Shown here: positions 1,394 through 42,477 of the stretch, one piece after another | How positions within the stretch are numbered: the stretch's first letter is position 1 | Layout of the letters: each line of letters starts with the position of its first letter | Origin: a virus | Reading direction: 5' to 3' (one strand) | DNA length: 51,808 bases | IMG/VR virus record: IMGVR_UViG_3300030107_003389 | Location: 1 to 51,808 of that record | Translations under genes and position numbers: made by a program | Notes under the pieces: generated by a model | What the model saw: only the letters and a program-made list of their open reading frames with translations | Told to the model about the DNA's origin: nothing | Databases searched by the model: none

Positions 1394-3394
1394 TTATTCA
1401 CCAATATCCTCAGACAGTAATGAATCTACTCCAGCCGTCACCTGTTGTTGTCGTTTTAGTTTCTCTTTCTCAATATTGACTTTTTGTTGAGCACCAGCAC
1501 CAGTAACAACTTTATCAAGGTTAGATTTAAATTTCTGTACCTCAACTCTTTTCTTATCTTGTACTGATTCTCTTTGAGCAGTTTGTAAGTCTCCACTAAG
1601 AATCTTTATTTGGTCTTGTAGCTGTGCTACCATACCTTGTAATCTTTGAACTTCTCCAGTTCTTTGTAATACACCTTCTTTATCGTATATTTCTGTTTTC
1701 TTTAATGCTTCCACTTTATCAATTAATCCTAATTGATATGCTTCTAAATACATTTGATATTCTGCATGTTTATTTGAAGGCATTGTTGACCCAGCAACAA
1801 TTTTAATATCAAATTGTCCTGAGGTTAAATCGTTTTCAATAGCTAAAATTGAATTAGTTTTATCATCATATAATCTATTATTAATAGCAAATTCTGTAAT
1901 ATCATTATTAGGTTGTACTATTCTAAATTTCTTTTCAAAAGTATAATGTCCTTTAGCAAGTTGATATAATACTTTTCCTAATTGTTGTAAAGACATTTCT
2001 ATATCTCTCAATTTAGCAGCACCTCTACCTTCTCCCATTTGTGCAAGTAACATTGTTCCTCTAACACTATTAGGAGCACCTTCTTTCATTCCTTGCAATA
2101 ATTCAGGAACACCAAAATTTAAATCAATATATCTTTCACATTGATTAATTAATTGATAGAACTCTCCTGATAATGCTTGAGGAGCTGGAAAATGAGGTTC
2201 TCCATAACTTGGGTCATATTCTAATACAGCATTAGGGTTTGCCCAATCTTTTTCTAATTGTCTTAAATCTTCTACACTTCCTTGAGGAACAAGTAATTTT
2301 AAACCTGCAGATGATTGAGCATGTGCTAAAGCTAAAGAAAATAGTTTGTTTAATAATCTTTGCATATCTTTAACTTTATTTACATCTGATTTAGGGTATG
2401 GTGTATTAGTCCAAATATTTGGTATAGGAATAATAGGGTATGTATCTGTATCTAATATAGTTTCATATAGAAGAACTTGTCCTATAGATGCTGTTACTTT
2501 AATTCTTGTTTGTGGTATTTCTACATACTCATAAACATTCATTTCAAATAATCTTTCATTTTCTTCCATAAACATTTTAAATGCTTCAGAACTCATAATT
2601 TTTTCTTGTCCAGTTTGATTATCTGCTACTCTATAATAAGGAACTCTTACTTTACTAAATCTTTCAATAATTCTATATCTGTTTCCTATTGTAGATTTCC
2701 AATCTTTATTATCTACTTCAGCAGGAGTAAATACAGCATTTGAATTTTTATTTAAAGAATCTGGATAATCGCTATATATATCAGACATATTATATGTTTC
2801 TATGTCTTCTAAAAATGGAGCTACATCTGGATATAAGTTTAAAACTTGTTCTTTTGTAAGTATTGTGGACAACAATACATTTGCTGCATCTTTAAAGTAC
2901 CTGTCTCTAGAAGCAGGGTCTACATAAACACGAAATGGGTTTACATGAGTAAACATTACTTCCCCTCTACCATAATCGGCTTCAGGTTCTATATAGGCAT
3001 AAAAATAACCCATTCCTGTGGTTGCATAATCATGTACAGCTTGTTTAAAATGATGTTGTCCATCTGATATATCGTATATATATTCTAGCAATGTTCTCCA
3101 AACACTAGCCATTTTAACATCAGAATCTTCTCTAGCTGTTGCACTAAATTTAACAGGTCTTGATGTCATCAATGATTTAAGCTTATCTATAGCTGCATAA
3201 ATTCTATCAATAGTAAAATCTGCTTGTCCTATAGCTTGTAGAGAATCTGATTCTTCTTGAGTGTAATGATTGCCTAATGTAAAATCTACGGCATCTCTTG
3301 CCTCTACATCCCAATCACTACGAGCATCAGCATATTGCTGAAAAAGTTCTTTATTTTCTGTTGCTTTTTTGTCTTCTTGTATTTGTTCTATCAT
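1394..3394 (-). CDS. Portal protein, P22-like
   Basis: Protein of 666 residues, the size usual for P22-type portals. The N-terminal part shows the portal layout: an acidic helical start, GQADFTIDRIYAAIDKLKSL, then SRPVKFSATARE and a conserved VNPFRVYVDPASR. The C-terminal 90 residues are a Lys/Gln-rich coiled coil (MVAQLQDQIKILSGDLQTAQ), like the barrel of P22 gp1. It forms the dodecameric DNA channel at one capsid vertex. The start ATG overlaps the lysozyme stop as ATGA, so the two are translationally coupled. Confidence 0.88.
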   Translation of the reverse strand: MIEQIQEDKKATENKELFQQYADARSDWDVEARDAVDFTLGNHYTQEESDSLQAIGQADFTIDRIYAAIDKLKSLMTSRPVKFSATAREDSDVKMASVWRTLLEYIYDISDGQHHFKQAVHDYATTGMGYFYAYIEPEADYGRGEVMFTHVNPFRVYVDPASRDRYFKDAANVLLSTILTKEQVLNLYPDVAPFLEDIETYNMSDIYSDYPDSLNKNSNAVFTPAEVDNKDWKSTIGNRYRIIERFSKVRVPYYRVADNQTGQEKIMSSEAFKMFMEENERLFEMNVYEYVEIPQTRIKVTASIGQVLLYETILDTDTYPIIPIPNIWTNTPYPKSDVNKVKDMQRLLNKLFSLALAHAQSSAGLKLLVPQGSVEDLRQLEKDWANPNAVLEYDPSYGEPHFPAPQALSGEFYQLINQCERYIDLNFGVPELLQGMKEGAPNSVRGTMLLAQMGEGRGAAKLRDIEMSLQQLGKVLYQLAKGHYTFEKKFRIVQPNNDITEFAINNRLYDDKTNSILAIENDLTSGQFDIKIVAGSTMPSNKHAEYQMYLEAYQLGLIDKVEALKKTEIYDKEGVLQRTGEVQRLQGMVAQLQDQIKILSGDLQTAQRESVQDKKRVEVQKFKSNLDKVVTGAGAQQKVNIEKEKLKRQQQVTAGVDSLLSEDIGE

Positions 3395-8100: not shown

Positions 8101-8129
8101 TTGACTTATGCTTTAAATCTTCTTAAATT
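8101..8129 (+). promoter_or_regulatory. Sigma70-like early promoter
   Basis: TTGACT (8101-8106), 17-base spacer, TAAATT (8124-8129). The same arrangement occurs at 18922-18950. The start point would fall near 8136, inside the first palindrome, so a protein bound there would block it. It should drive the genes from 8691 onward. Confidence 0.6.
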
Positions 8130-8146
8130 CAGTTAGAAACTAACTG
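8130..8146. promoter_or_regulatory. Operator-like palindrome at the start point
   Basis: CAGTTAG-AAA-CTAACTG, perfect 7-bp arms, immediately after the -10 element. It shares GTTAG/CTAAC half-sites with the palindromes at 8155 and 18956. Confidence 0.55.
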
Positions 8147-8154
8147 CTAATAGT

Positions 8155-8171
8155 CTAGTTAGTCTAACTAG
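8155..8171. promoter_or_regulatory. Operator-like palindrome, shared with 18956-18972
   Basis: CTAGTTAG-T-CTAACTAG, perfect 8-bp arms. Its inner 15 bases (TAGTTAGTCTAACTA) are identical to the palindrome at the start of the second early promoter. GTTAG is repeated again at 8171, 8175 and 8184. Confidence 0.6.
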
Positions 8172-8690
8172 TTAGTTAGTATAGTTAGCGAAATCCCTAA
8201 GTCCTTATATATCACGACTTAGACACAATACCCATTCTAAAAAAATAGCCCAAGTATGTGTGCTCTTCTTTTTTTTGCATGATACCCCCCCCCTGACTTT
8301 GTTATAGGATTGAACTTTTTAGTTGAAATTCGCCCTAAGTGTTGATATTGTTGAACTTAGAGCCGAGCCTTAAAAGTGAGCCGATTAGTGCTCAGACTAT
8401 ATTTTTTGAGCACTTTTCGAGCCCTCCAAATCATCCAAATCATCAAATTAGCCCTCCTGAGCACCCTTACTTTACCGACGATAAAGCCAAATAATCCTTG
8501 CTTGTTGCTCCTCGTATATATAAGTTTGTTTAGTTGGAGGTAAACCCTCGACACCTCCGACGACACAATAAGAGTTCGAGGAAAGAATAGAGAGAAAAAC
8601 ATGAATAAGACACTTTTAGCGTCAGAAATACCGACGGAGAGCACAAGTTCTCCGATAGAGAAACTAAACATCCTAAGAGGAGGATATAAC

Positions 8691-18389: not shown

Positions 18390-18711
18390 GAAAGGAGGTA
18401 TTTCCTATGAGCCCGTAAACACACTAAAAGTGTGTAATCGGAACGATAGGAGTTCTGAGTATTGTTTACATTAAACATGTATTAATTCAACTTGCCTATG
18501 GGCATTAAATATGTTGTCGTGCCTAACTTAATGGATAGTGGGCATGGGATGTGCACAATCGGTTAGTGTATGTGTAAATAATGCACGGAAACTCGCCGAT
18601 TGCACACTTAAAACAAAAAAATAAAAGTGTTGAGTTTAAAGCAAATTTATTAGTATATTGTTTTAGAGAGACATTTTTATTGTAAGTTTAACAATAAGTG
18701 AGGTTGCAGAT
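18390..18711 (+). other. 322-base non-coding gap with stems
   Basis: No gene seen. A very strong SD (AAAGGAGG) at 18390 leads only to ATG AGC CCG TAA. Stems: ACACAC-TAAAA-GTGTGT (18418-18434); TGCC/GGCA around 18493; CAATCGG/CCGATTG with flanking TGTG/CACA closing 18549-18605; and TTATTGT-AAGTTTA-ACAATAA (18676-18696) just before the SD of the next gene. The pairing and lack of frames suggest a structured RNA. I found no T-loop, so it is not a tRNA. Confidence 0.55.
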
Positions 18712-18912
18712 ATGCTTGATTTAAAAATTACTGATAAAATAAGTAGTGGTAAATTAAAAGAATTTACTTTTGTGCTCAGAAATAAAAGAGCACTTCAAGG
18801 GTTTATCACAAAACAATTTGTTGCTAAAAATAAGCAACAAGCAATTACTATGTTGCAACAAAATTGCGACTTAGTTTATGACGAAAAAAATGGAGATAAA
18901 TTAATTTCTTAA
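18712..18912 (+). CDS. Small basic hypothetical protein
   Basis: Protein of 66 residues, basic, with a beta-like middle (LKEFTFVLRNKRALQGFITK) and a helix (NKQQAITMLQQNC). GAGGTTGCAG lies before the ATG and a 7-bp hairpin just upstream of that. Family not recognised. Confidence 0.55.
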   Translation: MLDLKITDKISSGKLKEFTFVLRNKRALQGFITKQFVAKNKQQAITMLQQNCDLVYDEKNGDKLIS

Positions 18913-18921
18913 TTTTTTTTC

Positions 18922-18950
18922 TTGACTTTCGCTAACAAACTAATTAAACT
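18922..18950 (+). promoter_or_regulatory. Second sigma70-like early promoter
   Basis: TTGACT (18922-18927), 17 bases, TAAACT (18945-18950), preceded by a T-tract. Same spacing and near-identical boxes as 8101-8129. A 17-bp palindrome sits at the expected start point (about 18957). It should drive the small RNA candidate and the recombination-replication genes. Confidence 0.65.
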
Positions 18951-18955
18951 AACAT

Positions 18956-18972
18956 ATAGTTAGTCTAACTAT
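18956..18972. promoter_or_regulatory. Operator-like palindrome at promoter 2
   Basis: ATAGTTAG-T-CTAACTAT, perfect 8-bp arms. The inner 15 bases are identical to 8156-8170. ATCTAA-C-TTAGAT (18971-18983) follows directly. In reverse orientation 18972-18928 also resembles 8155-8194, ending in GTTAGCGAAA. Confidence 0.62.
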
Positions 18973-19112
18973 CTAACTTAGATAACTATACTTTTTTTAC
19001 CTTTATTCGAGTAAAAAGGCAAGGTTTTTAATTTTCCCTGAATTAGTTAGTTCTCATCAATTCATGTTATGCTATCAGGGTTTTCATGTTTTCCTTGCCT
19101 TTTTCTTTTTTA
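18957..19112 (+). ncRNA. Candidate phage small RNA of about 155 nt
   Basis: It would run from the predicted start of promoter 2 to a terminator-like end. AAAAAGGCAAGG (19013-19024) pairs perfectly with CCTTGCCTTTTT (19093-19104), followed by C and six T. Inside, CCCTGA (19036-19041) pairs with TCAGGG (19075-19080), in competition with TGAATT/AATTCA. No frame of note lies within. It could equally be an attenuator controlling read-through into the nuclease gene. Confidence 0.45.
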
Positions 19113-19137
19113 ATCCTTATATTCCCTTATAACATGT

Positions 19138-19269
19138 CAGGTAGTGATACAATTACTTAAACATTTAATAGCACTTAAAAGGAGTGTTGCAGGTTTGTAA
19201 ATCCTGTTTACCTTTGTTGTTAATATTTAAGCAAATACAAAATTGGTTTGGCTACCTTATCGCTACCTG
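19138..19269 (+). promoter_or_regulatory. Multi-stem leader before the nuclease gene (riboswitch-like)
   Basis: A 12-bp closing stem (CAGGTAGTGATA at 19138-19149 with TATCGCTACCTG at 19258-19269, one G-U pair) encloses further pairing. CTTAAA/TTTAAG, CACT/AGTG near 19171-19185 and CAGG/CCTG around a 9-base loop near 19190-19206 are visible. It ends about nine bases before AAGGAGA and ATG 19289. The form is like a cis-regulatory RNA. I do not recognise a known class. Confidence 0.5.
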
Positions 19270-19288
19270 ATTTAATTAAGGAGAATAT

Positions 19289-20158
19289 ATGTCGGCGATA
19301 GGTTTTATATGTCCTGATAATCAAGAAATACAATTTAAAGATTGCTTTAATAAATGTCGCATGTCCGAGAGATGCATGTCTATTGCGACATTAAAAGCGA
19401 TGTCTGAGCAACGACCACCTAATCGCCCTCCCTCAACAACTGAACTCTTGTCTGGAACATGCGAGAGTTATCTCAAAAGAACACAAGAATATTTTATCAA
19501 CCCTCAGGATAGAGCATTTGCTCTTATGGGAACAATTCATCATCTACAATTAGAAAACCAAGATGTTGGAGACAATGTTTTACAAGAGGAAAATCTACAA
19601 GGTTTAGATATTACTGGAATTTTAGACTTTTACGACAAAGAAAGCCAAACATTAATCGATTATAAAAACACGGGAAGTTTTAAAGCCTCAAAAGTGCTCG
19701 GATTAAAAAATAGATTAGTTCCATGTCCATTAAGAACGAAATACAAGAAATCAGGAAAGTGGGGGAAAGCAGGAACAATCAAAAAAGTGAAAGAGCACTA
19801 TCAAGACGAAAATTCTAAGGATTTCGGAGATTGGTTATATCAAGTAAACATGTATCGTTATATGCTTGAATTAAAAGGATATAAAGTAAAACACATGAAA
19901 CTACAAATGAATATCAGGGATGCAGGAACATACTCCTGTAAAGATAGGGGAATAACACGAAATATTTACTTTGTCGATATTCCTTTCCTTGACAATGATA
20001 TAATTATTCCGTATTTTCTTGAAAAGAGAGATAGACTTTTACAACATCTTGAAGATGAAACTACTCCTCCAAAATGCTCAGACGAGGAAACTTGGGAGGG
20101 TAAAAAATGTGAAAGTTATTGCGAAGTAAGAGGTTTATGCCCACACATAAACAAGTAA
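19289..20158 (+). CDS. Cas4/RecB-like PD-(D/E)XK exonuclease with Fe-S type cysteines
   Basis: Protein of 289 residues. Nuclease core: GTIHH (81-85), ILDF with Asp113, then IDYKN with Asp124 and Lys126. Cysteines sit at both ends (C8, C19, C23, C29 and a C-terminal cluster ending in CEVRGLC), an arrangement like the iron-sulphur cluster that staples Cas4/AddB nucleases. It probably resects DNA ends for the annealing protein encoded next. It opens the recombination module behind AAGGAGA. No Cas genes are present. Confidence 0.82.
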   Translation: MSAIGFICPDNQEIQFKDCFNKCRMSERCMSIATLKAMSEQRPPNRPPSTTELLSGTCESYLKRTQEYFINPQDRAFALMGTIHHLQLENQDVGDNVLQEENLQGLDITGILDFYDKESQTLIDYKNTGSFKASKVLGLKNRLVPCPLRTKYKKSGKWGKAGTIKKVKEHYQDENSKDFGDWLYQVNMYRYMLELKGYKVKHMKLQMNIRDAGTYSCKDRGITRNIYFVDIPFLDNDIIIPYFLEKRDRLLQHLEDETTPPKCSDEETWEGKKCESYCEVRGLCPHINK

Positions 20159-24421: not shown

Positions 24422-25772
24422 TAAAAATCTTGAAGTATCAAAAATGTATAGTGGCATGTCAGAACGAGAAGTTTTGGGATGCATGCTACTCGATGATAGC
24501 ACTATTAATGAAGTAATAAAGTATATTCCTACTAAACAAGTATTTTATCACAAAGACCACCAAAACATTTGGTCTGCTATTTATAGTCTGCACAAGCAAA
24601 ATAAGAAAATCGATTTAAGTGTTGTTGCAAACTATTTAGGAGAAAAAGGATTAAAGATTACATATTATTTAAGTGGAATTACTGAACAAATAGTATCAAA
24701 AGGTAATTTAAATACACATGCAAAAATTATTTATGATTTATATTTAAGAAGAGAACTTTGGAATAAGGTTGCGAAGTTTCAACAAAGATTAAAAGACGAA
24801 AGTTCTTATAAAGAAGTAGCAACTGATGTTAATATGTTGGGGAGAATTTCCGACAAATTCGCCGATATGCTCGATAATGGCAATAAGTCAATGGATTGCA
24901 TCACAGAAGAAATGGAAGAGGCTATATTTGCTCAAAAAAATCTATTACAAACTGGATTAAGAAAAGTAGATAAGTCAATCGTTGGTATGACAAAGGGCGA
25001 AATCTCCATTATTGCAGGTAGACCTGGAAACGGAAAGAGCACCTTAGCCTTAAATATGGTTAAAAATATGATTTTAGACGGCAAAAAAGTAATGTTAGTT
25101 AGTAGAGAAATGCCTAATGTTGAGATTATTAAGAAGTTAGTTGCTATGCATACTAATGTTCGTAATAAGGAAATGAGAGGAAATGCTCACAAACACAAAG
25201 AAGAAATCAAAAAAGGTTTAGAGTTCATAAAAAAACATTACACTTCGCTTCATTTATTTGATAATTTAAGAAGTCTCGATGATAGTATAAACGAGGCAAA
25301 AAAAATAAGACCCGATGTAATTATTGATGACCATGTTGGTTTTATTGAATTTCCACATTACGATAATAGAGATACTCGACATCGTATTGCCGAAATTACA
25401 AGAAGATATAAATGGTTAGCAAAAGAAATTGATTGTTCTGTAATCTTAGTCTCTCAACTAAACAGAAACATAGAACATCGAGTTGATAAGATACCAAGAC
25501 TTAGCGACCTTGCTGAGTCTGGTAATCTTGAGCAAGATGCCGAAATTGTAGTCTTTGCCTATTATCCCTATGTATACGAATATGATAATGCCGAGCACGG
25601 AGAACACGGATTAAAAATTATCATAGCAAAAAATAGATACGGAACAACATGTAAATTTGATATGGGTTATCACGGAGATAGTGCTACAATATTGGATAAT
25701 CCTGCCGAGGCTATTGCAAAATCTGAGGGTAGAGAACTTACTACTGAAGAAGTAGTAGAAAGTCTATTTTAA
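24414..25772 (+). CDS. dnaB: Replicative DNA helicase, DnaB family
   Basis: Protein of 452 residues. The N-terminal DnaB domain (SEREVLGCMLLDDSTINEV) is followed by a linker and a RecA-fold motor with Walker A AGRPGNGKST (about 201-210), Walker B DVIIDDH and sensor/finger text VILVSQLNR and LSDLAESGNLEQDAE. It unwinds DNA at the phage fork. No phage primase or polymerase is visible, so it probably recruits host ones. The last early gene; its 3' end overlaps the converging late block by nine bases. Confidence 0.93.
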   Translation: MNNKNLEVSKMYSGMSEREVLGCMLLDDSTINEVIKYIPTKQVFYHKDHQNIWSAIYSLHKQNKKIDLSVVANYLGEKGLKITYYLSGITEQIVSKGNLNTHAKIIYDLYLRRELWNKVAKFQQRLKDESSYKEVATDVNMLGRISDKFADMLDNGNKSMDCITEEMEEAIFAQKNLLQTGLRKVDKSIVGMTKGEISIIAGRPGNGKSTLALNMVKNMILDGKKVMLVSREMPNVEIIKKLVAMHTNVRNKEMRGNAHKHKEEIKKGLEFIKKHYTSLHLFDNLRSLDDSINEAKKIRPDVIIDDHVGFIEFPHYDNRDTRHRIAEITRRYKWLAKEIDCSVILVSQLNRNIEHRVDKIPRLSDLAESGNLEQDAEIVVFAYYPYVYEYDNAEHGEHGLKIIIAKNRYGTTCKFDMGYHGDSATILDNPAEAIAKSEGRELTTEEVVESLF

Positions 25773-28700
25773 TTTTCTATAGTGCTCATTTTTTGTTTGA
25801 GCAATATGTCTAAATAATTCTTGAGAGTTTATGCGATAAACACCTGTAATATCTTTAAGTTCTGCTTTCATTTCATCATTTAATCTGCTTACAAAATCTG
25901 CATGGTCTGATATTCTTCTACCTTGTGTTGATTGCATTGATAGTTGTATAGGTTTTTGGTCTTTTATGTATGCTAATGCCATTTTATATCCGTATTCAAA
26001 CGATACTTTTTGACTTGTTCTTCCTGGATTAGCCATTTCGTGTTGATGTGCTAAGAAATATACGGTAGTCCAAAAACTTTGAGCCTTTTCTTCTATAGGT
26101 TTTTGAGAATAAAGAGTTGCTTGTAGTTGTTTATACATTAAACTTTTCGTCACATCGTCGTTAAATTGTCCAACACTTTCAATTTTTCTTATGTCTTTTC
26201 TATATTCTGATTGCAACATCCTCATATTTTTGAAATGTCTTAAATCTTTTTTAAGCCAATTAGCCTCTATACCTTTAATAATGTCATTAGACAAAGGAAT
26301 TGCTTCAAAAATTGCTTTTGCTCCTGCTTTTAACAATGCTACATCTTGACCATTAGCATCCTTATCTAATAACATTGCTCCTCCTTTAAACATTTGAGTA
26401 AATGCACCTATCATCCTTATAGGCAGTTGAATAATTGCAGGAGTAAATGATTGAAAAAAACCACCTGATGCTTGGTCTTGGTCCATTATACCTGAGCCCA
26501 ATGCATACATTTCACCTTTTACTGCGTAATCGTTCATCCTTTCAAGAGGAATAACGATGTTATTTCTATATTCATCCCAACTTATTTCTCCTTTTGAAAC
26601 ATCTATTGTAGATTTTGCAAAATCTTTTAATTTCATTTCAGGTTTAAATGCCTTAGGATTAGAGTTAAATGCATCAAAATATACATTTTGTAATACATAT
26701 CCTGCTCCCATACTTCCTGCTATATATCTTAACATAGGAGCAACTTCTCCATTATCTATCATAGGTCTAAACGCATTTTTATAAACATTTTCTTGAACAC
26801 GATAAGCAATACGATAAAACAATGTAAAAGGTTTCATCGCTTTAGTGCTCATAAAACGAGGCATAAACACAGGGTCTGCTAAACCTTGCGTGCTCGCATG
26901 TGCTGTAAAATATATTTTATCTAACGCTTTTTGACTAAATGCTCCTGTTTCAACTGCGTCTGCAATTTGTTTATCAGACAATTCTAACGCCTCTCCGAGC
27001 ACCCTTCTGGCTGTAGACTTGTCCATACCAGAAAACATTTTTATTGGCTGGTTTCTGAGCACCCTAAGAGCATCAGTCGCTACAACATCTCCTGTAGTAG
27101 TTGCTACTACCCTATTTAATTCTTCTGCTTTTTGCATCCAAGTAGTAAGCAATTTTCTAAATCCTGTTTTTGGAACTAATGTAGTTTCTAATATAGCATC
27201 AGAAGCACCTATAGCACCACTTGCTCTTGCTTTTTGCCATGCTTGATTTCTAAATGATTTACTCATAATCATATTATACCATGTCGAAATAACAGGTTTC
27301 ATGCCATGTGTAGTTAATAATTGAACATTTCCTAAAAGAATATTTTTTAGAGCAGAACGAGGACTACTTAAACCCAAAGAAGCAGTCCAAGATACTAAAT
27401 TTCTTGAAATAGGTCCAGTTAATTCATCATATCCAGGTCCATGAAGAATTAATTCTAAATCTTTTTCCATTTGTTCTTTAATATATTTTTGAGCACCTGG
27501 ACTATTTACTTGTCTTTGTATACTTCTAAACCTTTTTGTAAAATTTGACGAAAAGTCTTTCGAGCCTGGTTTAAATACACCTTCGTGACCAAAATATTTA
27601 GTAGTTGCAGTAATATTTGATGCACGACTTGCATATCTGTCCATACTTTTAGCATAATTAGGCTCATATATATCTATTATTTTAGCAATTCTAGTTCCAT
27701 CAATGCTATCTCCTACTTGTTGAGTCATGTTTTTTACACCTTGAATTATTTTTCCATTACTATCAAGAAACAATTTTGGAGGAATAGCATCACTTAAACG
27801 GCTATATTGTGCTCCAAACATACCATGTTTTTGACTTCCAGTAAGAACAGTTTCAAAAACTCCTTCTGCAAGTTCATATCTTTTTTCATATGGTAATTGA
27901 GCATATTCTCCATTTCTGATAAATCTTGCATCATGAGCTAGTATATGATTAATCATAGTTTCATGAGCATCTTTATCTTTCATAAAAAATTCTGCAGCTT
28001 CATCAGTAGTTGTTAAACTTACAAAATTAGGAGTTTTTGTTAAGTCTCTATATCTATAACCTTTTCCATCCCAATATTTTTCTTTTACTCCAGCTTTTTT
28101 CATCATTGCAAACATATCATCGGTATATTGTTTATGAAGAGCTACCATTTTAAGCATAGCATCATGCTCTTGAGCAGTTAAATTTGGCTGTAATTGCTTC
28201 ATAAACCTTCCTCTTGCACTTTTAGTTTTTCCTTCAATAAAATATGTAAGATTCTCGTCTAATAATTTTGTAGAAGCCTTAGAAAGACCAGAAGTAATTT
28301 TTTTCATCTGTTCTCTCATTACTGAATATCCACCTTTTAATTTTTCTCTAAAAGCAACCATATCTCCTAAGTCTTTTCCAAGAACTACTAATTCATCACT
28401 TCCTAAATCTCTACCTAAATTCATAAATTTAGTGTTAATTGGAAGAACTGAATTAATCCATTTTCTTATACCTCCTAAAAGAGACTTTTCTTGTCCAAAT
28501 AAAGTAGATAATGTAGATTCATTTACTCTAACAGCATATGTTTTGTCTGATTTTAACAATGAATAATATTTGGCAAGTTCATCACTATTCATTTTTTTCA
28601 TAGAATCTTTACCAAATAAAGCTTGTTTTAAAGCTGCATGGTGCTCAACACCTTTTTTAGTTGCTATAGGAGATTTTAACCCCATTGTTCTTTCTAATTG

Positions 28701-30863
28701 TTCTGCTTTTCTTACTAATTGTATGTGCTCAGCAGTTTGAATAGTAAAAGGAACTTTATCTCTTGGATTTTTAATTGAGCCTAAAATTTCATCAGCTCTT
28801 ATCATTTTAAACTTTTTAGAAATAGATGGGTCTTGTAAAGATTTTTGTTTACTGCCTTCTTGAAATTTATAACTCCAAGGTATTTCTTTATTATTGTTAC
28901 CTGTCATTGAACCAGCTCTTGTCCAACCTTTTTTCCCAGATGCACCAGTTATCCAATCTACTTTTTGATATGTAATTTGTTTAATATCATACGATGCTCC
29001 TTTTTTAGGTCTTATTATATTCATAAGTCCTTTATTTGTAAAAACTGTTTCTTGTCCAAATAATTTAGCTATATCTATAACACCTTTTTCGTCAAGCTTA
29101 CCAAGAGTTGAAGCATCAGCTCCTTTTAAACCTTTCATTTTAACAATAAAAGAAGTTCCATGTGTTCCATCAATCATTAATCCTTTAGTGCTCATAATGT
29201 GTTCTCTTGAAACACCTCTATCAAGCAGTTCTCTTACTAATGCTTCTGCCTGAGTTTCTCCAGGTAAAACTTTTGCAGTAGTGTTATATAAAGGACTATC
29301 AGCTGATATAATAGCATATTTTTCTTCGTTTAAAAACTTTAACAAATCTTTTTCATTTTTTAAACTACCTCTAGCTCCACTAATAACATGTCTTTGTAAA
29401 TCACCATTTTCATCTTTTACAACATTGTGTATAATTTCTTGAACTTTATTATCGTCTAATCTTTTATACTGAGGACCAACTCTATCTCCTTTTTTATTTC
29501 TTCTACCTAAAGTAAATACATCAAAGTCTTGAACAACATCTTTATCTTTAATTTTTGTAGACATACCTTGATATGTGTCATATTGAACTTTTAATTTTCC
29601 ATCTTCTGCATCAATAAATACTTTTTTAACTTGAGCTCTATTTTTAGTTTGTCCTCTTTTACCAGTTGGCTGACTTACAAATTCTAAACCTGCAAACATT
29701 TCGTTCATTACTTTAAGTCCTTGTTTCCCACCTAAAGCCATAGATATAGATGCTAATTCTCCTAATTGTCTTTCATCTGTAATTCCTAATCTTTCAAATG
29801 CTCTTATTGTATCTTGTTTAGCAACATTTAAGGAAGCACCACCAAACAATCTACCCATAACAGTTGTAACTCCACCCATCATTAATCTAGAAGTAAGTTG
29901 TTCTTGAGCACTCATTTCATCTTGTCCAGGCATATACATCATCATACCTGAAGCCATATAAGCTTTAGCTTCAGCCCAAGCTCTTGTATCTCTTTGTGCT
30001 AATTTAGTAAAAGTAACTCCAGTTCCTATTTGAGTTCCTTTTGTTATATCATCAGCAATAAAACTACTTTTTCTAATTAAATGTGGATTTTTAACATATC
30101 TCATTGCTGGAGCATATGCAAAAATAGCACCAGCAGCAGCATCTTGTCCAAATGCTAAAGCTCTTTCTTTTAATGTAGCTTCATCCTCTACCATTAATTG
30201 CCCCGTAGAGCCCCAAATTAGGCTCTCCCTGGTCATTTCTCTACCTAAGGCATACCTTCTTGCAGCTCCAACATCTTTTGCGGCTAATCGCATGAATTTA
30301 TCAATATGAGCTTTACCTGGTCCATTTATACCAATTTTACTAACAAGTCCTGAACTTTTAACTCCAATTCCTGATTCAGCAACTGCATCTGCCATTGCTA
30401 ATCGTTTTGCTTTATTAGTTTCATAAACTACTTTACCAGTAGCATCCATACCTTTTTTAGCAAGATTGTATGCTTTTGCACCTTTTTGAAGTCTATTGGA
30501 ATTAGAAGCAAGCATTGCTAAACCACCTAAACCTCCTGTAGCATAAGTTGCTATACCTGTCCAAGCAAGAAATCCAAGACCTGTTCCTAAAGCTTTACCC
30601 ATTTTAGCATTAAAAGCTAAATCATCTGCTTCTAAATTAGGGTCATTATATAATTGTCCAAATGACATTTCTTCTGCCCAAGAACCAAGAAAAGCTTCAC
30701 CAAAAGTATAACTTTCAGGTGGCTTATATTGTTCTATTGGAGTTAATTTTGGACCTTTATTATCTACGGCGTATTCGCTTAAAGGTGTAAGACTGTACTC
30801 GTTTAAAGGAGTAAGTTTAGTTGTGTTTGCTTTTTCGTAATCTTTTAAAGGTGTAAGCTTCAT
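25764..30863 (-). CDS. Giant internal virion protein (1699 residues)
   Basis: Largest late protein after the fibre. The N-terminus has four copies of LTP[LI]xxY in 47 residues (starting at 3, 17, 25 and 41), perhaps docking motifs. Hydrophobic Gly/Ala segments follow (ALGTGLGFLAWTGIATYA), then a long helical body. Such size, helical content and place at the end of the late block fit the ejected internal proteins of podoviruses that extend the tail through the host envelope. No enzymatic domain was recognised. The 3' third (25.8-27.5 kb) shares the GAGCAC richness of the early block. Confidence 0.7.
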   Translation of the reverse strand: MKLTPLKDYEKANTTKLTPLNEYSLTPLSEYAVDNKGPKLTPIEQYKPPESYTFGEAFLGSWAEEMSFGQLYNDPNLEADDLAFNAKMGKALGTGLGFLAWTGIATYATGGLGGLAMLASNSNRLQKGAKAYNLAKKGMDATGKVVYETNKAKRLAMADAVAESGIGVKSSGLVSKIGINGPGKAHIDKFMRLAAKDVGAARRYALGREMTRESLIWGSTGQLMVEDEATLKERALAFGQDAAAGAIFAYAPAMRYVKNPHLIRKSSFIADDITKGTQIGTGVTFTKLAQRDTRAWAEAKAYMASGMMMYMPGQDEMSAQEQLTSRLMMGGVTTVMGRLFGGASLNVAKQDTIRAFERLGITDERQLGELASISMALGGKQGLKVMNEMFAGLEFVSQPTGKRGQTKNRAQVKKVFIDAEDGKLKVQYDTYQGMSTKIKDKDVVQDFDVFTLGRRNKKGDRVGPQYKRLDDNKVQEIIHNVVKDENGDLQRHVISGARGSLKNEKDLLKFLNEEKYAIISADSPLYNTTAKVLPGETQAEALVRELLDRGVSREHIMSTKGLMIDGTHGTSFIVKMKGLKGADASTLGKLDEKGVIDIAKLFGQETVFTNKGLMNIIRPKKGASYDIKQITYQKVDWITGASGKKGWTRAGSMTGNNNKEIPWSYKFQEGSKQKSLQDPSISKKFKMIRADEILGSIKNPRDKVPFTIQTAEHIQLVRKAEQLERTMGLKSPIATKKGVEHHAALKQALFGKDSMKKMNSDELAKYYSLLKSDKTYAVRVNESTLSTLFGQEKSLLGGIRKWINSVLPINTKFMNLGRDLGSDELVVLGKDLGDMVAFREKLKGGYSVMREQMKKITSGLSKASTKLLDENLTYFIEGKTKSARGRFMKQLQPNLTAQEHDAMLKMVALHKQYTDDMFAMMKKAGVKEKYWDGKGYRYRDLTKTPNFVSLTTTDEAAEFFMKDKDAHETMINHILAHDARFIRNGEYAQLPYEKRYELAEGVFETVLTGSQKHGMFGAQYSRLSDAIPPKLFLDSNGKIIQGVKNMTQQVGDSIDGTRIAKIIDIYEPNYAKSMDRYASRASNITATTKYFGHEGVFKPGSKDFSSNFTKRFRSIQRQVNSPGAQKYIKEQMEKDLELILHGPGYDELTGPISRNLVSWTASLGLSSPRSALKNILLGNVQLLTTHGMKPVISTWYNMIMSKSFRNQAWQKARASGAIGASDAILETTLVPKTGFRKLLTTWMQKAEELNRVVATTTGDVVATDALRVLRNQPIKMFSGMDKSTARRVLGEALELSDKQIADAVETGAFSQKALDKIYFTAHASTQGLADPVFMPRFMSTKAMKPFTLFYRIAYRVQENVYKNAFRPMIDNGEVAPMLRYIAGSMGAGYVLQNVYFDAFNSNPKAFKPEMKLKDFAKSTIDVSKGEISWDEYRNNIVIPLERMNDYAVKGEMYALGSGIMDQDQASGGFFQSFTPAIIQLPIRMIGAFTQMFKGGAMLLDKDANGQDVALLKAGAKAIFEAIPLSNDIIKGIEANWLKKDLRHFKNMRMLQSEYRKDIRKIESVGQFNDDVTKSLMYKQLQATLYSQKPIEEKAQSFWTTVYFLAHQHEMANPGRTSQKVSFEYGYKMALAYIKDQKPIQLSMQSTQGRRISDHADFVSRLNDEMKAELKDITGVYRINSQELFRHIAQTKNEHYRKLK

Positions 30864-35552: not shown

Positions 35553-35792
35553 CTATCCCTTTATCTTTTTATATTCAACAATGTCTGCTTTAAGTTCAGT
35601 CACTTTTGCTTCTGCTTTTACTAATTCTTCTTCTGCTTCTGAAATTGCTAAATCAACTGATTTAGTTTCAGTCCAATCAACTACTGAAACATCTTTATCT
35701 GCTTCATCTTTCATTGAACGAAGATGTTTGATTTCAACCATTTTAACTGCAGTTTTTGACTCTACTGCTTTTTCTGCTATTTTCTTAGCCAT
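35553..35792 (-). CDS. Small coiled-coil protein
   Basis: Protein of 79 residues with a C-terminal heptad helix (AISEAEEELVKAEAKVTEL). Overlaps the fibre gene end by eight bases. May assist fibre folding or attachment; family unknown. Confidence 0.55.
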   Translation of the reverse strand: MAKKIAEKAVESKTAVKMVEIKHLRSMKDEADKDVSVVDWTETKSVDLAISEAEEELVKAEAKVTELKADIVEYKKIKG

Positions 35793-38700
35793 TACTATCT
35801 CCTATTTTAGTTTTAAGTTCATTTATTTGAACTTGTTGTTCTTGAACTGCTTTTATTAATACAGCAGTTAATTTTTCATAGTCCAAAGTCTTTATTTTTT
35901 TATCAAAATGTTTTTTATCTTTTACAATTTCAGGAATTATTTCTTCTACTTCTTGTGCAATAAATCCTATATCATGTCTATTATCTTCTTTCCAATCATA
36001 TTGTTTTGGATTTAAACTCATAATAGTATCTAAACCATAGTTAATTTCTTCAATATTAGTTTTTAATCTCTTATCTGAAGGTGTTGTAGAAAATGCTATA
36101 ACATCTTGTTTTGCATGAAAATCTCCATCAGTTTCCATTCTAAATTCTTCTGTTGCACCACCTGATTGATTATAAGGACAAGTCCCAAATGATAAATAAC
36201 CACCTGCAAGAGTTCCATTACCTGTTGGATTTACTGTTTTAATAAATGAAGCTATATAAGGTGCATTACCACTTGAATCTTCTAAAAATGTTTCTATTGT
36301 AGATATAACATCTCCTGAATCCCAATCTGTGCTTTGTACTGTGTTAGTCAATCTAAATGTCGGTGAACCTGCTGCACCATCAGTACCACCTGAACCTGCT
36401 ACATCTAAATTTGTTTGTGGTGATATTCCTATACCGACATTTTGAGATGCATCAATAGTCATTGCAACAGCATTGGCAGTTTTAAAGTCCATAGAATCGC
36501 TACTATGTTTATATGCTATTCTACCTCTTATTCCACCACTATCCATAAAGTGGATACCAGTATCTGAACTTGTACCACCACCTATTCCAAGATAAGAATG
36601 CCCATCATCTTCAATTAATAAATGATTATTTGCATCATCAGGAATAGAACCATCTCCATTATAAATATGAACTTTACTTGTTGGGAATTTAGTTCCTATA
36701 CCGACATCTCCACCATGACTAATCCTCATACTTTCATTAAAATCACCTGAACCATCTGTTCCTTGTGTATAAAAAGCCAATCCAACAAAATCAGTATCAG
36801 TATTTTCAGCAACAGCAGTAATCATAGCCCTTCTTCTTGAAGAACCACCCAACCATGTAATTCCACCATAAGTAGCAGCATTAGTTCCTTCATGCCCACG
36901 AAGTAGTATGCTATCTTGACCTGAAGCTGTTTCTGTAGCACTTCCATCTCCATCTGAAGTTGTAGAAGTATTATGTATGTGCAATTTTGCACTTGGTGAT
37001 TGAGTTCCTATGCCGATATTTCCTGAATTATCAATGACCATTCTTTGATTTGACTGCAAATTATCTGAATCAGCAAAAACAAATAATGAACTATTGCTTG
37101 GTGTTCCCATTCTCATAGCTCTATGTCCTGCTCTTTCCATTTTAATAACTACTGGACTTCCTGTAATGTGTAAGTTAGCATCAATAGAATCTTCTCCTAT
37201 ACCGACACCAGTATTATTAACTCTAACTCTTTCAGTATTTCCTGTTGATATACCAAAACTATTATCTGCTGGTCTAAATATTGCTGCATCTGCTGTTGGT
37301 GCAGAAGCATTTGTTCTAAAAATTAATCTATCAGAACGAGCATCTCCTGCTACATCTAATTTATATCCTGGTGATGAAGTTCCTACTCCTAAATTTCCTG
37401 CAGGCATTAAATTAATATCATAACCACCATAAGTTCTAATTTCTAAGTCATTACTTACTCTATTAATTACTGCATTAGTATCCTCAAATTCTACTTGGTC
37501 GCCATGTCTTGTATTTTTATGTATAGTAGTTCTACCAGTACCATAAGTCAATAACATAGCACTATTAGTAACATCTCTTAAATACAATACATCTTCTCCA
37601 CTATTGTTGTATTGAAGAAAGTTAGTATTACCATTGTCAAATTGCACACCATAACCAGTTGTAATTTTACTCGTTACACTTAATTCTCCACCAATATCTA
37701 TATTACCACCAGTCACTATATTGCCACTAAAAGTTGTATTACTATTGATATACATTTGTGCAGCATTACCAGATAAATCTTGAACTGCAATAGCGTCCCT
37801 ACCTAAATACATTAATCTTGCATTATCTTCAAGCTTTAATAAAGAAGTGCTACCACTTCCAGTAGTTTTAATGTGAAGTTTTGTATCGGGACTATTTTCA
37901 CTAATACCGACTTTATTGTTAGCAGAATCTGCAAATAAAGTAAAGTTGGAATCATTGACTACTAAGTTAGCATCTACTGTGGTAGCATTAGGTATATATC
38001 CACCTTTAAATCTTTGATTGTTAGATAGTTCATGTTGCATAGCCCCAAGCATAGTTGCTTCATCTTGTCCACCTCCCTCTTGACATACTAAATAAAATGG
38101 TGCTGTACCTACAAATCTAAATGGACCTGCAGTTGATACATTTGTTGCTCCAGTAGCATTACCAGTTTCAAACAACAATGGTGAATTTTTAGTAGCAGCA
38201 CTTCCATCGTGCGTATATAATACATTACCACTTACATCTAATACTTTTACAAAAGTATCTTGAAAACAAACTAATCTATAATTTGACAAATCTGTACTAC
38301 CATAAATATAGTAATCAGAACAGAACTCGATAGGCATAGCAAATTCTGCGTCACTACCTGAACCATCAGCAGTACCTGAAGCATATAATCCATACTTACC
38401 AGTAGTATCTCTTAAATAATAAGCATTACTATTTGCTGTTTCTGAAATAGTTGTACTACCTTCCAAGCCATTTGTTATACCACCTTTCATTTCTCTTGAA
38501 TAATTACTTGCTATAACTTCCATAGCTAAAGGTGTAAATATTAAATGGTCAGCTCCTCCATCATCTAAGGTAGCACATACTTTTCCATCTGCTACAATTA
38601 CATAGTATTGAGTTTGTGAAGTGCCTCCATCTTCATCATATGCTACAATACCACCTTTGCTAAGTGTTCCTGTTTCTTCAGGAGTTCCAGTAATATCTAT

Positions 38701-41700
38701 GTTTGCAGAAGTGCTTACAAATATTTTATAAGTTACACTCGCATAAGGTGCATAAATATGTATTTTTAAAGGTTGTCCTCTTGAATTAGAAGAACCTAAT
38801 ATTCTACCACTAAATCTTGTATTCATGCACATACTTCTGATTGTGCCTGATTGATTTACAACAACTGCTCTATCTGCTGAAATAACATCTCCTAAACTTA
38901 AATCTCCTGCACTAATAGTTGCTTGTCCAAAGGCACTATCAATCTTGCCTTTATATACGCCATTTAGATAAACATTTGTATTATTAAAATATGAAGTAAC
39001 AACATGGTCAGAACCACTCTCCATTACAATCCAGTCACTTTCAACAAAGTGTCCTTTGTGTTGCATATAATCTCTTGTATCTAAATATTGATGTGCTTTT
39101 AGTGTACCACCTAATGCTAAATTTTGATTTTGAACATTACTACCTACAAAAATATTATTTTTAATACTAACATTACCTGACGAGTTAATTTTGAAAGCAT
39201 TAGCACCTGCACCACTTTCAATTACAAAAGGGTCACCTGCACCAGTTTCAGTAATATGAAAATTATTTGTTACTGCTCTTGCTCTCCAAGTTGCACTTCC
39301 ATCAGTATCTGTAAATGCTAATTCAGGTGCAGTTCCTGATAAATGTAAAAGATAACTTGGTGATGTAACTCCAATGCCAACATTACCTGATGTATCTATT
39401 GTTAGTCTATCATTAGTTCCAACTGCAGAATTATCAGAAATTTTAAAAGCATTAGCACTATCATCTATACCTATTGAAAAATATTTATTACCAACATCTC
39501 TAAATGTTATTTGTGGGTCGCCACTTCCTGCATGAATATTAACTTCTGCATAAGGAGAAGATACACCAATATCTCTTACAAATCTTGCTATACTTGCACC
39601 TCCACCACCACCAGTAACTTTAAAAGCATGGTCATTACTATCTTGATTGACATGGAGAGGTGTTTCGGGCGATGAAGTTCCAATTCCCACTCGTGAATTA
39701 CTATCTACTACTAAAGTATCACTTCCTGCACCATCTTCAATGCTAAATGGTGTATTACTATCTGCATAAAGTTCAAATCTATTATTAGAAATACTATATC
39801 CAAGATTTGCTCTTGTTGTGCTTCCTTCATTGAAATATATTCTTGGATTTGCGTCATTAGATTGTATTCTAAATACTGCATTACCTGATGCTTTTTCAAG
39901 TTTTAAAGTTCCTGCAGTATAAGTTAATTCTGTTTCTCCAGTTAGTGTACCATCTCCATCTGATGTTAATACTGCGTTTGCAGTTCCACTATTAGCAATC
40001 ACATCAGCTAAAGCAATAGATAAAGTACCAGTAGAAGTAATTGTTCCACCACTTATACCAGTGCCAGTTGCTATACTACTAACTGTACCAGAATTGTTTG
40101 TAAAAGGTAAATCACTTACTGTACCTACTCTTGTATTATTGCTATCAGAACCATCAAAAAATATAAAACCATCTGAAGCCTGTACCTCAGATACAGCTGT
40201 TAATGCACTAAAAGCTATGTCTACTTTATCTGCACCAACTGACAATGTATCTGAACCTACTGCAAGAGTTATAGTTCCTGATGATGTTATTGCACTACCA
40301 CTACTAGTTAATCCATTACCACCTGCTACTGTTACAGAAGTAACCGTACCAGCATTGGAAGTAAATCCTGAATCGTTGTTAAAGCCAGATAAATTAATAT
40401 TACCTTTTGTAAGTTTTTTCTGAGCATTAGAACTATCAACTACTGCAAAGAAATCTCCGTCTCCGTCTGATGTAGATGTGGTGAGCTCAGATAAATCTAG
40501 TGACAAAGTATGAGTAGTTCCTTCTCCAGAAGTAGCAGCATTGCTATCTATACCAGTTCCTCCAGTTATAGTAGCAACATAATTACCAGTTGTTTTTGTG
40601 CCTAATGCTACGCTATCATTAGCAATCGTTGTATCAATACTTACTGCTGCACTACCATCAAAACCTGCTCCTGGTGTTACACCTGTTATATCTCCAGTTA
40701 ACGATATGTCTCTAGCATTTGCTAACTTTGTTGCTGTTCCTGCATTACCAGTAGCATTACCAGTTACATTACCTTCTAAGTTTGATACAAGAGTTCCAAC
40801 AGCATATCCTGTTTCATTTACATCTACTGTAGTTGTAGGCTCTACTTGTAAATCTTTAAATAATTTAAACTTACCACTATCATTAGCATCTCTAAATAAA
40901 CCTGCATATTTATCAGTTCCACTTGTATCGTACAAACCATAAAAACCAATGTCTACAGAATCTGCAGCATTGTTAGCTTTTGCTAGTTTAATTAAAGGGT
41001 CTTCTACTATAAGATTAGTAGTGTCTATTGTAGTTGTAGTTCCGTTTACTACAAGACTGTTAGCAATAACAACATCATCTGGTAAACCAATAGTTATTGT
41101 ACCAGAACTTTCTGCAACAGTTGCTTCATTTGAAGTTCCACTAAATGTAATTGTACTTCCTAAAGTTCTTTGAGTAGAGTTAGAACCATCTGAAACAGTA
41201 ATACTACTTTCAGCTAATTTAGTAATAGCAATAGCTGCATCAGAAGCAACTTGACCATCACTTATAGTGTCTAATTCTGCCAAATCTCCTAAACCTAAAT
41301 TACTTTTCGCTGCAGTTGCAGTAGTTCCTCCAGTACCACCTCTAGCAATACTTAAAGTTCCTGTAGTTCCTCCAATAATAGGTAATCCTGTAGCATCTTG
41401 TAAGTCAAACGCAGGTGTTGCATCGCTAGCTCCTAAAGCCACACTTACTCCACCATAGCTTACAGATGTATTAGTTAGAGCTACATCATTAGCATTAACA
41501 GTAATTCCTGTACCAGCTCCTATGTTTAAAGTTGTGCTTGAACCTAAAGAAACCGAACCTCCGTTTATTAATCCTGCTCCAGCAGTTATTGTTACAGCAG
41601 ACTCAGCTAGTTTACTGATAGCTATAGATGCATCTGAAGCAACATCGCCATCTGATACTTCATCTTTAATTGCTAAATCTCCAAGCCCTAAACTTGTTCT

Positions 41701-42477
41701 TGCCGTGCTACCTGATTCGTATTGAAAAGCACCAGAGCCAGTAGCTACAATAAATTGACCATTAGAAGAAGCTGCTCCTAATGTATCTAAATCTTCTAAA
41801 ACACCATCTACTGCTATAGTTAATGTTTCGTTTGAACTTTGATTAGTTGTAAAATTACCTATTGCAGCTAAACCTGCACCAGGACTTAAAGTAATAGTTG
41901 CGTTAGCAGGAGCAGCTATACTTGATATTTCTGAATCTACATAAGCTTTAATAGATTGTTGTGTAGCAAGTTTAGTATCGCTATCAGAAGCCATATTGTT
42001 TTCATCTAAAATAGCAGTACCACTTACACCTGTATTTATAACAGGACTTGTTAAAGTTTTGTTTGTAAGAGTTTGTGAGCCAGTAAGAGTTGTTACTGTA
42101 GAATCAATAGCAATATCATTTGCATTAGCAGTAATACCCGTTCCACCAATTACATTTAAAGGTATATTTCCACTAGAACCACCACCTGTTAAACCTGTTC
42201 CAGCTGTAATACCAGTAATATCTCCAGCTCCAGAAGAACTGCCTTGCATAATAACATTTGTAACATCTCCAGTTTTTCCAGGAGCAACGGTAGGCATAAC
42301 CTTTCCTTGTTCTTCAAATCTTGTTTCGTATACAACGCCTTGTCTTTTTTCTTGTTTTATTAATACTCCATCCTCAAGAAATGATATAGATTCTCCTTCT
42401 CTAATATTATTTTTAGATGGTCTTACTCTAAAGAATGAGTCAATTCCATTGACTTTATGTTTACCAGATTTTGGCAT
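35785..42477 (-). CDS. Giant tail fibre/spike with C-terminal intramolecular chaperone
   Basis: Protein of 2230 residues. An N-terminal virion-binding segment is followed by Gly/Thr/Ser-rich beta repeats with variants of TGITVNANDIAL and LGLGDLA. From roughly residue 950 on, nine or so repeats of the form VGIGTxSPxxxLxV appear. The C-terminus (SDKRLKTNIEEINYGLD, DIGFIAQEVEEIIPEIV) is the Peptidase_S74 chaperone that trimerises and usually cleaves itself off. A receptor-binding role is likely. The start overlaps the previous stop (TAATG). Confidence 0.9.
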   Translation of the reverse strand: MPKSGKHKVNGIDSFFRVRPSKNNIREGESISFLEDGVLIKQEKRQGVVYETRFEEQGKVMPTVAPGKTGDVTNVIMQGSSSGAGDITGITAGTGLTGGGSSGNIPLNVIGGTGITANANDIAIDSTVTTLTGSQTLTNKTLTSPVINTGVSGTAILDENNMASDSDTKLATQQSIKAYVDSEISSIAAPANATITLSPGAGLAAIGNFTTNQSSNETLTIAVDGVLEDLDTLGAASSNGQFIVATGSGAFQYESGSTARTSLGLGDLAIKDEVSDGDVASDASIAISKLAESAVTITAGAGLINGGSVSLGSSTTLNIGAGTGITVNANDVALTNTSVSYGGVSVALGASDATPAFDLQDATGLPIIGGTTGTLSIARGGTGGTTATAAKSNLGLGDLAELDTISDGQVASDAAIAITKLAESSITVSDGSNSTQRTLGSTITFSGTSNEATVAESSGTITIGLPDDVVIANSLVVNGTTTTIDTTNLIVEDPLIKLAKANNAADSVDIGFYGLYDTSGTDKYAGLFRDANDSGKFKLFKDLQVEPTTTVDVNETGYAVGTLVSNLEGNVTGNATGNAGTATKLANARDISLTGDITGVTPGAGFDGSAAVSIDTTIANDSVALGTKTTGNYVATITGGTGIDSNAATSGEGTTHTLSLDLSELTTSTSDGDGDFFAVVDSSNAQKKLTKGNINLSGFNNDSGFTSNAGTVTSVTVAGGNGLTSSGSAITSSGTITLAVGSDTLSVGADKVDIAFSALTAVSEVQASDGFIFFDGSDSNNTRVGTVSDLPFTNNSGTVSSIATGTGISGGTITSTGTLSIALADVIANSGTANAVLTSDGDGTLTGETELTYTAGTLKLEKASGNAVFRIQSNDANPRIYFNEGSTTRANLGYSISNNRFELYADSNTPFSIEDGAGSDTLVVDSNSRVGIGTSSPETPLHVNQDSNDHAFKVTGGGGGASIARFVRDIGVSSPYAEVNIHAGSGDPQITFRDVGNKYFSIGIDDSANAFKISDNSAVGTNDRLTIDTSGNVGIGVTSPSYLLHLSGTAPELAFTDTDGSATWRARAVTNNFHITETGAGDPFVIESGAGANAFKINSSGNVSIKNNIFVGSNVQNQNLALGGTLKAHQYLDTRDYMQHKGHFVESDWIVMESGSDHVVTSYFNNTNVYLNGVYKGKIDSAFGQATISAGDLSLGDVISADRAVVVNQSGTIRSMCMNTRFSGRILGSSNSRGQPLKIHIYAPYASVTYKIFVSTSANIDITGTPEETGTLSKGGIVAYDEDGGTSQTQYYVIVADGKVCATLDDGGADHLIFTPLAMEVIASNYSREMKGGITNGLEGSTTISETANSNAYYLRDTTGKYGLYASGTADGSGSDAEFAMPIEFCSDYYIYGSTDLSNYRLVCFQDTFVKVLDVSGNVLYTHDGSAATKNSPLLFETGNATGATNVSTAGPFRFVGTAPFYLVCQEGGGQDEATMLGAMQHELSNNQRFKGGYIPNATTVDANLVVNDSNFTLFADSANNKVGISENSPDTKLHIKTTGSGSTSLLKLEDNARLMYLGRDAIAVQDLSGNAAQMYINSNTTFSGNIVTGGNIDIGGELSVTSKITTGYGVQFDNGNTNFLQYNNSGEDVLYLRDVTNSAMLLTYGTGRTTIHKNTRHGDQVEFEDTNAVINRVSNDLEIRTYGGYDINLMPAGNLGVGTSSPGYKLDVAGDARSDRLIFRTNASAPTADAAIFRPADNSFGISTGNTERVRVNNTGVGIGEDSIDANLHITGSPVVIKMERAGHRAMRMGTPSNSSLFVFADSDNLQSNQRMVIDNSGNIGIGTQSPSAKLHIHNTSTTSDGDGSATETASGQDSILLRGHEGTNAATYGGITWLGGSSRRRAMITAVAENTDTDFVGLAFYTQGTDGSGDFNESMRISHGGDVGIGTKFPTSKVHIYNGDGSIPDDANNHLLIEDDGHSYLGIGGGTSSDTGIHFMDSGGIRGRIAYKHSSDSMDFKTANAVAMTIDASQNVGIGISPQTNLDVAGSGGTDGAAGSPTFRLTNTVQSTDWDSGDVISTIETFLEDSSGNAPYIASFIKTVNPTGNGTLAGGYLSFGTCPYNQSGGATEEFRMETDGDFHAKQDVIAFSTTPSDKRLKTNIEEINYGLDTIMSLNPKQYDWKEDNRHDIGFIAQEVEEIIPEIVKDKKHFDKKIKTLDYEKLTAVLIKAVQEQQVQINELKTKIGDSNG

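Follow-up and report, generated by a model that had tools for sequence, protein, structure and literature searches.

Most of what is known about small RNAs of phages comes from model phages grown in culture and studied by RNA sequencing. OOP RNA of the lambdoid phages is short, has its own promoter and is coded beside the replication genes, where it is a cis-encoded antisense RNA of cII (PMC12197685). The c4 RNA of phages P1 and P7 blocks the ribosome-binding region of its target, ant, via short complementary sequences (PMC12197685). In vitro, on designed templates carrying separate units, recycling RNA polymerase re-initiates after intrinsic termination (PMC6978380).

The window analysed here (the whole stretch of DNA) is a 51,808-base record of an uncultured phage, in which the early genes, at about 8 to 25.8 kb, point rightward and have leftward late genes on either flank. 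Two of the minus-strand late ORFs are very large (1699 aa, 25764-30863; 2230 aa, 35785-42477) and possibly code for internal virion proteins. Among the early genes, a gap of 376 bases separates a 66-aa ORF from an exonuclease gene, and an RNA element lies inside it. The features concerned are as follows.

8101-8187, plus strand: early promoter (TTGACT-17-TAAATT) with a matching operator cluster at 8131-8187; conserved in relatives.
18712-18912, plus strand: 66-aa ORF, directly upstream of P1, its 3' end abutting P1.
18922-18950, plus strand: P1, the predicted small-RNA promoter; TTGACT at 18922-18927, a 17-bp spacer and TAAACT at 18945-18950.
18956-18972, no strand assigned: operator-like palindrome ATAGTTAGTCTAACTAT at the predicted RNA start.
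18957-19109, plus strand: predicted small RNA of about 154 nt, from P1 to the terminator; fold z -5.1.
18998-19005, plus strand: single-stranded linker with ACCUUU, the counterpart of ACUCCUU/UUCCUUU in relatives.
19013-19111, plus strand: predicted intrinsic terminator; 12-bp stem 19013-19024/19093-19104, 68-nt loop, inner stem 19036-19041/19075-19080 and T-tract.
19095-19123, plus strand: P2, the predicted exonuclease-operon promoter; TTGCCT in the terminator 3' arm, 17 bp, TATATT.
19118-19288, plus strand: structured exonuclease mRNA leader (z -4.9 for 19100-19290).
19289-20158, plus strand: exonuclease (PHROG 2139 exonuclease, E 2e-19), first gene of the recombination/replication operon.

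We give about even chances to a phage small-RNA gene whose terminator forms half of the promoter of the next operon and whose RNA would act by pairing with ribosome-binding sites. The anatomy of the transcription unit is likely to be as listed, and that the RNA acts in trans by way of its CCUU linker is put forward tentatively. The order P1-RNA-terminator-P2, its conservation and the shared operator are supported by the sequence comparisons below. The gene would lie after the early operon and before the recombination/replication operon. P1, with operator-like sites resembling those of the early promoter and putatively bound by a phage regulator, would direct an RNA of about 154 nt. This RNA would end at an intrinsic terminator that also stops read-through from the 66-aa gene upstream, and, the 3' arm of the terminator doubling as the -35 box of P2, it would stop on top of the next promoter. 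Once made and accumulated, the RNA may pair through its single-stranded CCUU (ACUCCUU, an anti-Shine-Dalgarno sequence, in relatives) with the ribosome-binding sites of early mRNAs, possibly including that of the exonuclease itself, and lower their translation.

Like OOP, the predicted RNA is a short phage RNA with its own promoter, located beside replication genes and proposed to pair with phage mRNA. Unlike OOP, it shares the strand of its neighbours, lacks an antisense partner at the locus and has a terminator merged with the promoter that follows; a relation to OOP in sequence was neither expected nor found (no Rfam match). The proposed blocking of a ribosome-binding region by a short complement recalls c4 RNA, whose target is defined, whereas none is established here. 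As on the templates used for re-initiation (PMC6978380), a promoter closely follows a terminator, but here the terminator arm itself would be the -35 box. A literature search for overlapping terminators and promoters returned re-initiation work and, among the papers listed, no natural case, which does not prove the arrangement to be unpublished. It would offer a natural test bed for the coupling of transcript ending and starting, addressed so far on designed templates (PMC6978380). The small RNA is predicted by comparison within an uncultured group, and its promoter, operator, end and neighbour are all defined.

The relatives were collected by searches with an alignment of the exonuclease and with the annealase (Sak-like) and helicase (DnaB-like) that are encoded downstream of it. 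Seventeen further sequences have an exonuclease 68-78% identical to that of the window and an intact upstream region, giving 18 with the window. Many are close to each other and the 18 are therefore not independent cases; merging those at least 75% alike just downstream of the terminator leaves 11 representatives. The order upstream gene, P1, RNA, terminator, exonuclease is found in all 18. Homologues of the 66-aa ORF occupy the same place in L002, L007, L009, L082 and L086 (tblastn, 39-53% identity), and a similar ORF is visible upstream of the RNA element in most other relatives. Given that this ORF ends against P1, its mRNA would be expected to use the small-RNA terminator as well. There was no match to the exonuclease alignment in bacterial and archaeal genomes, to the exonuclease in GenBank phages (tblastn) or to the RNA region in GenBank phages (blastn). 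In distant exonuclease relatives (44-53%), inspection by eye of the 500 bases upstream revealed no terminator module of the GGCAAG type.

The preliminary description had proposed a stand-alone small RNA gene. Its promoter, hairpins and terminator are conserved in the 18 sequences, and the transcript itself is predicted. The promoter described there is present, as TTGACT-17-TAAACT; taken alone, such a match is no more frequent than chance predicts (11 sites in 4 kb, with 17.7 expected from shuffles), and it becomes credible because all 18 sequences keep the pattern (TTGACW, 17 or 18 bp, -10 box). The P1 stretch of 31-33 nt is 90-94% identical in L085 and L086, and the P1 region of 71 nt is 82% identical in L106. 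The RNA has a promoter of its own as judged by consensus and conservation only, the consensus used for P1 and P2 being that of sigma-70, which may not be that of the host.

The core 15-mer of the palindrome, TAGTTAGTCTAACTA, occurs exactly only twice in the window: at the RNA start and at 8156-8170, just 3' of the early promoter, which is of the same type as P1. In a density scan with CTAGCTAG/TAACTA-like words, the early promoter and P1 are the two densest places in the window, a ranking that is descriptive because the words were picked after the sites had been seen. The same two places are densest in G001, G010, G012, G009 and G014, and rank in the top three (tied second) in G011, so that the pairing of operator-like sites at both promoters is common to seven of the 15 genomes (the window and six relatives). 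The L003-type clade, L007 and L093 have operator-like words at the early promoter only, and the spacer of the RNA promoter in the compact clade contains an inverted repeat instead. L013 has a P1-type promoter of nearly the same sequence at 3087-3163, with CTAGC repeats that are operator-like, and there it precedes the gene of a 62-aa protein, not a small RNA. The early leader (8101-8300) combines promoter, operator cluster, a conserved box AAAAAAATAGCCCAAGTATGTGTG, a T run and a C run, is conserved in at least 12 relatives, and could be a second small RNA or a leader under the same operators.

The RNA segment folds with -37.6 kcal/mol, which none of 200 shuffles equalled. As the preliminary description had noted, it has no reading frame: there is no ORF of 40 aa or more, and no frame is conserved. 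Rfam searches of the window and relatives, at gathering and permissive thresholds, gave nothing credible. The compact-group RNA, of about 92 nt, has two hairpins, followed by ACUCCUU as a single-stranded linker and then by the terminator. In its linker-adjacent hairpin and terminator, 97% of cells hold standard pairs, and five pairs have changed on both sides; the pairing percentage was reached by 0 of 500 shuffles and the number of both-side changes by 1 of 500, figures that are support and not proof, since kinship alone can push sequences beyond shuffles. A covariance model of the compact RNAs finds one convincing copy per genome and scores weakly in divergent relatives. It does not match the RNA of the window, which is the most divergent; what ties it to the rest is its position, promoter and terminator, and not likeness of the sequence as a whole.

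The body of the RNA is poorly conserved in sequence and in length (about 79-314 nt across the 18 sequences), while P1, terminator and P2 are kept. This is what would be seen at a mere operon junction, with the terminator closing the early operon, P2 opening the next and the P1 RNA having no role in trans; P1 may then matter through interference with P2 or as a source of RNA polymerase for it, and the in vitro restart of recycling polymerase at nearby promoters (PMC6978380) fits such a role. We regard this reading as unlikely, while keeping it in serious consideration. Against it, paired changes maintain the hairpins, and CCUU lies within 26 nt before the terminator in 16 of the 18 sequences (L085 and L086 being the exceptions). 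The linker reads ACUCCUU in the L003-type clade, L007, L103 and L087, and UUCCUUUCGUGG in L002, L082 and L093; the identity of ACUCCUU among the otherwise different L003-type, L007/L103 and L087 RNAs argues in the same direction.

For the small RNA acting by pairing, the linker would be the active part. ACUCCUU is complementary to AAGGAGU, the Shine-Dalgarno sequence of the exonuclease in L007, L103 and the majority of the L003-type clade, and in the L007 genome AACAAGGAG sites precede several early genes. A search by longest complement and duplex energy yielded no phage target common to the genomes compared; in some genomes the best non-self sites include early ribosome-binding sites, and the gene differs. 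CCUU is short enough to match many genes and no target is claimed.

The perfect 12-bp stem of the preliminary description is present, with a 68-nt loop, as are the inner stem (CCCTGA with TCAGGG) and the T-rich end (19100-19111). A perfect 12-bp stem closing a loop no longer than 100 nt arises in about 3% of Markov-simulated 900-nt stretches; in the whole window, other such stems lie at four places, three of them pure A+T or coding, and controls give a mean of 1.7 matches. Stem and T-tract occur in all 18 sequences. In relatives the loop measures 3-6 nt in 15 cases and 16 or 27 nt in two, and the stem is followed by a T-rich tract. Because relatives close a short loop and run into this tract, the 12-bp stem is, by prediction, an intrinsic terminator and not a conserved closing stem of the 6S type. 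The 5' arm changes by way of G-U pairing, reading GGCGAG in seven sequences and GGTGAG in L002, and the 3' arm TTGCC is unchanged in 17 of 18; a second duty of the 3' arm would lead one to expect this pattern.

This second duty would be the -35 box of P2, supplied by the arm CTTGCCT. TA...T is found exactly 17 bp past the 3'-arm TTG in 18 of 18 sequences and 11 of 11 representatives; the next best offset is shared by 5 of the 11, and none of 20,000 shuffles reaches 11.

The preliminary description had also considered an attenuator with a competing fold. P1 transcripts would run into the exonuclease operon, and a signal would choose between the terminator and an antiterminator formed by CCUU and AAGG of the 5' arm. 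Such pairing is possible in many sequences (for example CCUUUG/CAAAGG in L087), and the competing hairpin, CTTTTTTTAC with GTAAAAAGG, is present in the window. This hairpin is weak, however, at -3.3 kcal/mol against -27.0 for the terminator hairpin, and the competing helix has only 4-6 bp; the pairing does not require the ACU that is conserved in ACUCCUU. The predicted P2, starting inside the terminator in 18 of 18, speaks against sole dependence of the operon on read-through. We consider attenuation improbable.

A terminate-and-restart relay, in which the polymerase ending the small RNA would stay on the DNA and restart at P2 for the exonuclease operon, is given slightly lower odds again; if it were true, operator control of P1 would set the output of P2. 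A 6S-like RNA binding RNA polymerase, a comparison also raised in the preliminary description, is rejected as highly improbable: the long stem, U-rich bubble and inner hairpin of that outline are combined in the window only and the stem is the predicted terminator, most relatives have a short-loop terminator without bubble or long loop, no conserved closing stem, central bubble and terminal stem were found, and the Rfam 6S models have no match even at E up to 5.

The U-rich internal loop was also considered as a triple-helix stability element, a candidate dropped since the loop occurs in only three of 18 sequences (the window, L086 and L106). Hairpins with a UUGUUU/UUUUU internal loop between G+C-rich stems, at 5080-5438 in L086 and 2614-2842 in L106, recall the U-rich bubble in the terminator loop of the window.

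In L002 (5070-5109) and L082 (5604-5644), the P2 -10 box ends 5-6 nt before the exonuclease ATG, which has no Shine-Dalgarno sequence and coincides with the expected P2 start. This spacing would be accounted for if P2 gave a leaderless mRNA, and the exonuclease appears, from these sequences, to be read from leaderless mRNA in both. Upstream of the RNA element in the window, a non-coding stretch at 18390-18640 is strongly folded (z -4.3), with a stem of the GTGTGCAATCGG type; no similar sequence was found in any relative examined. The exonuclease leader of the window has no Rfam family match. About 100 nt of it are 83-85% identical in the L003 clade, and it is also shared with L007 and L013. 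Its closing stem is CAGGTAG/CTACCTG, with inner hairpins AGCACUU/GAGUGUU and GCAGG/CCUGU and the Shine-Dalgarno sequence in the outer stem, and it resembles a cis-regulatory leader.
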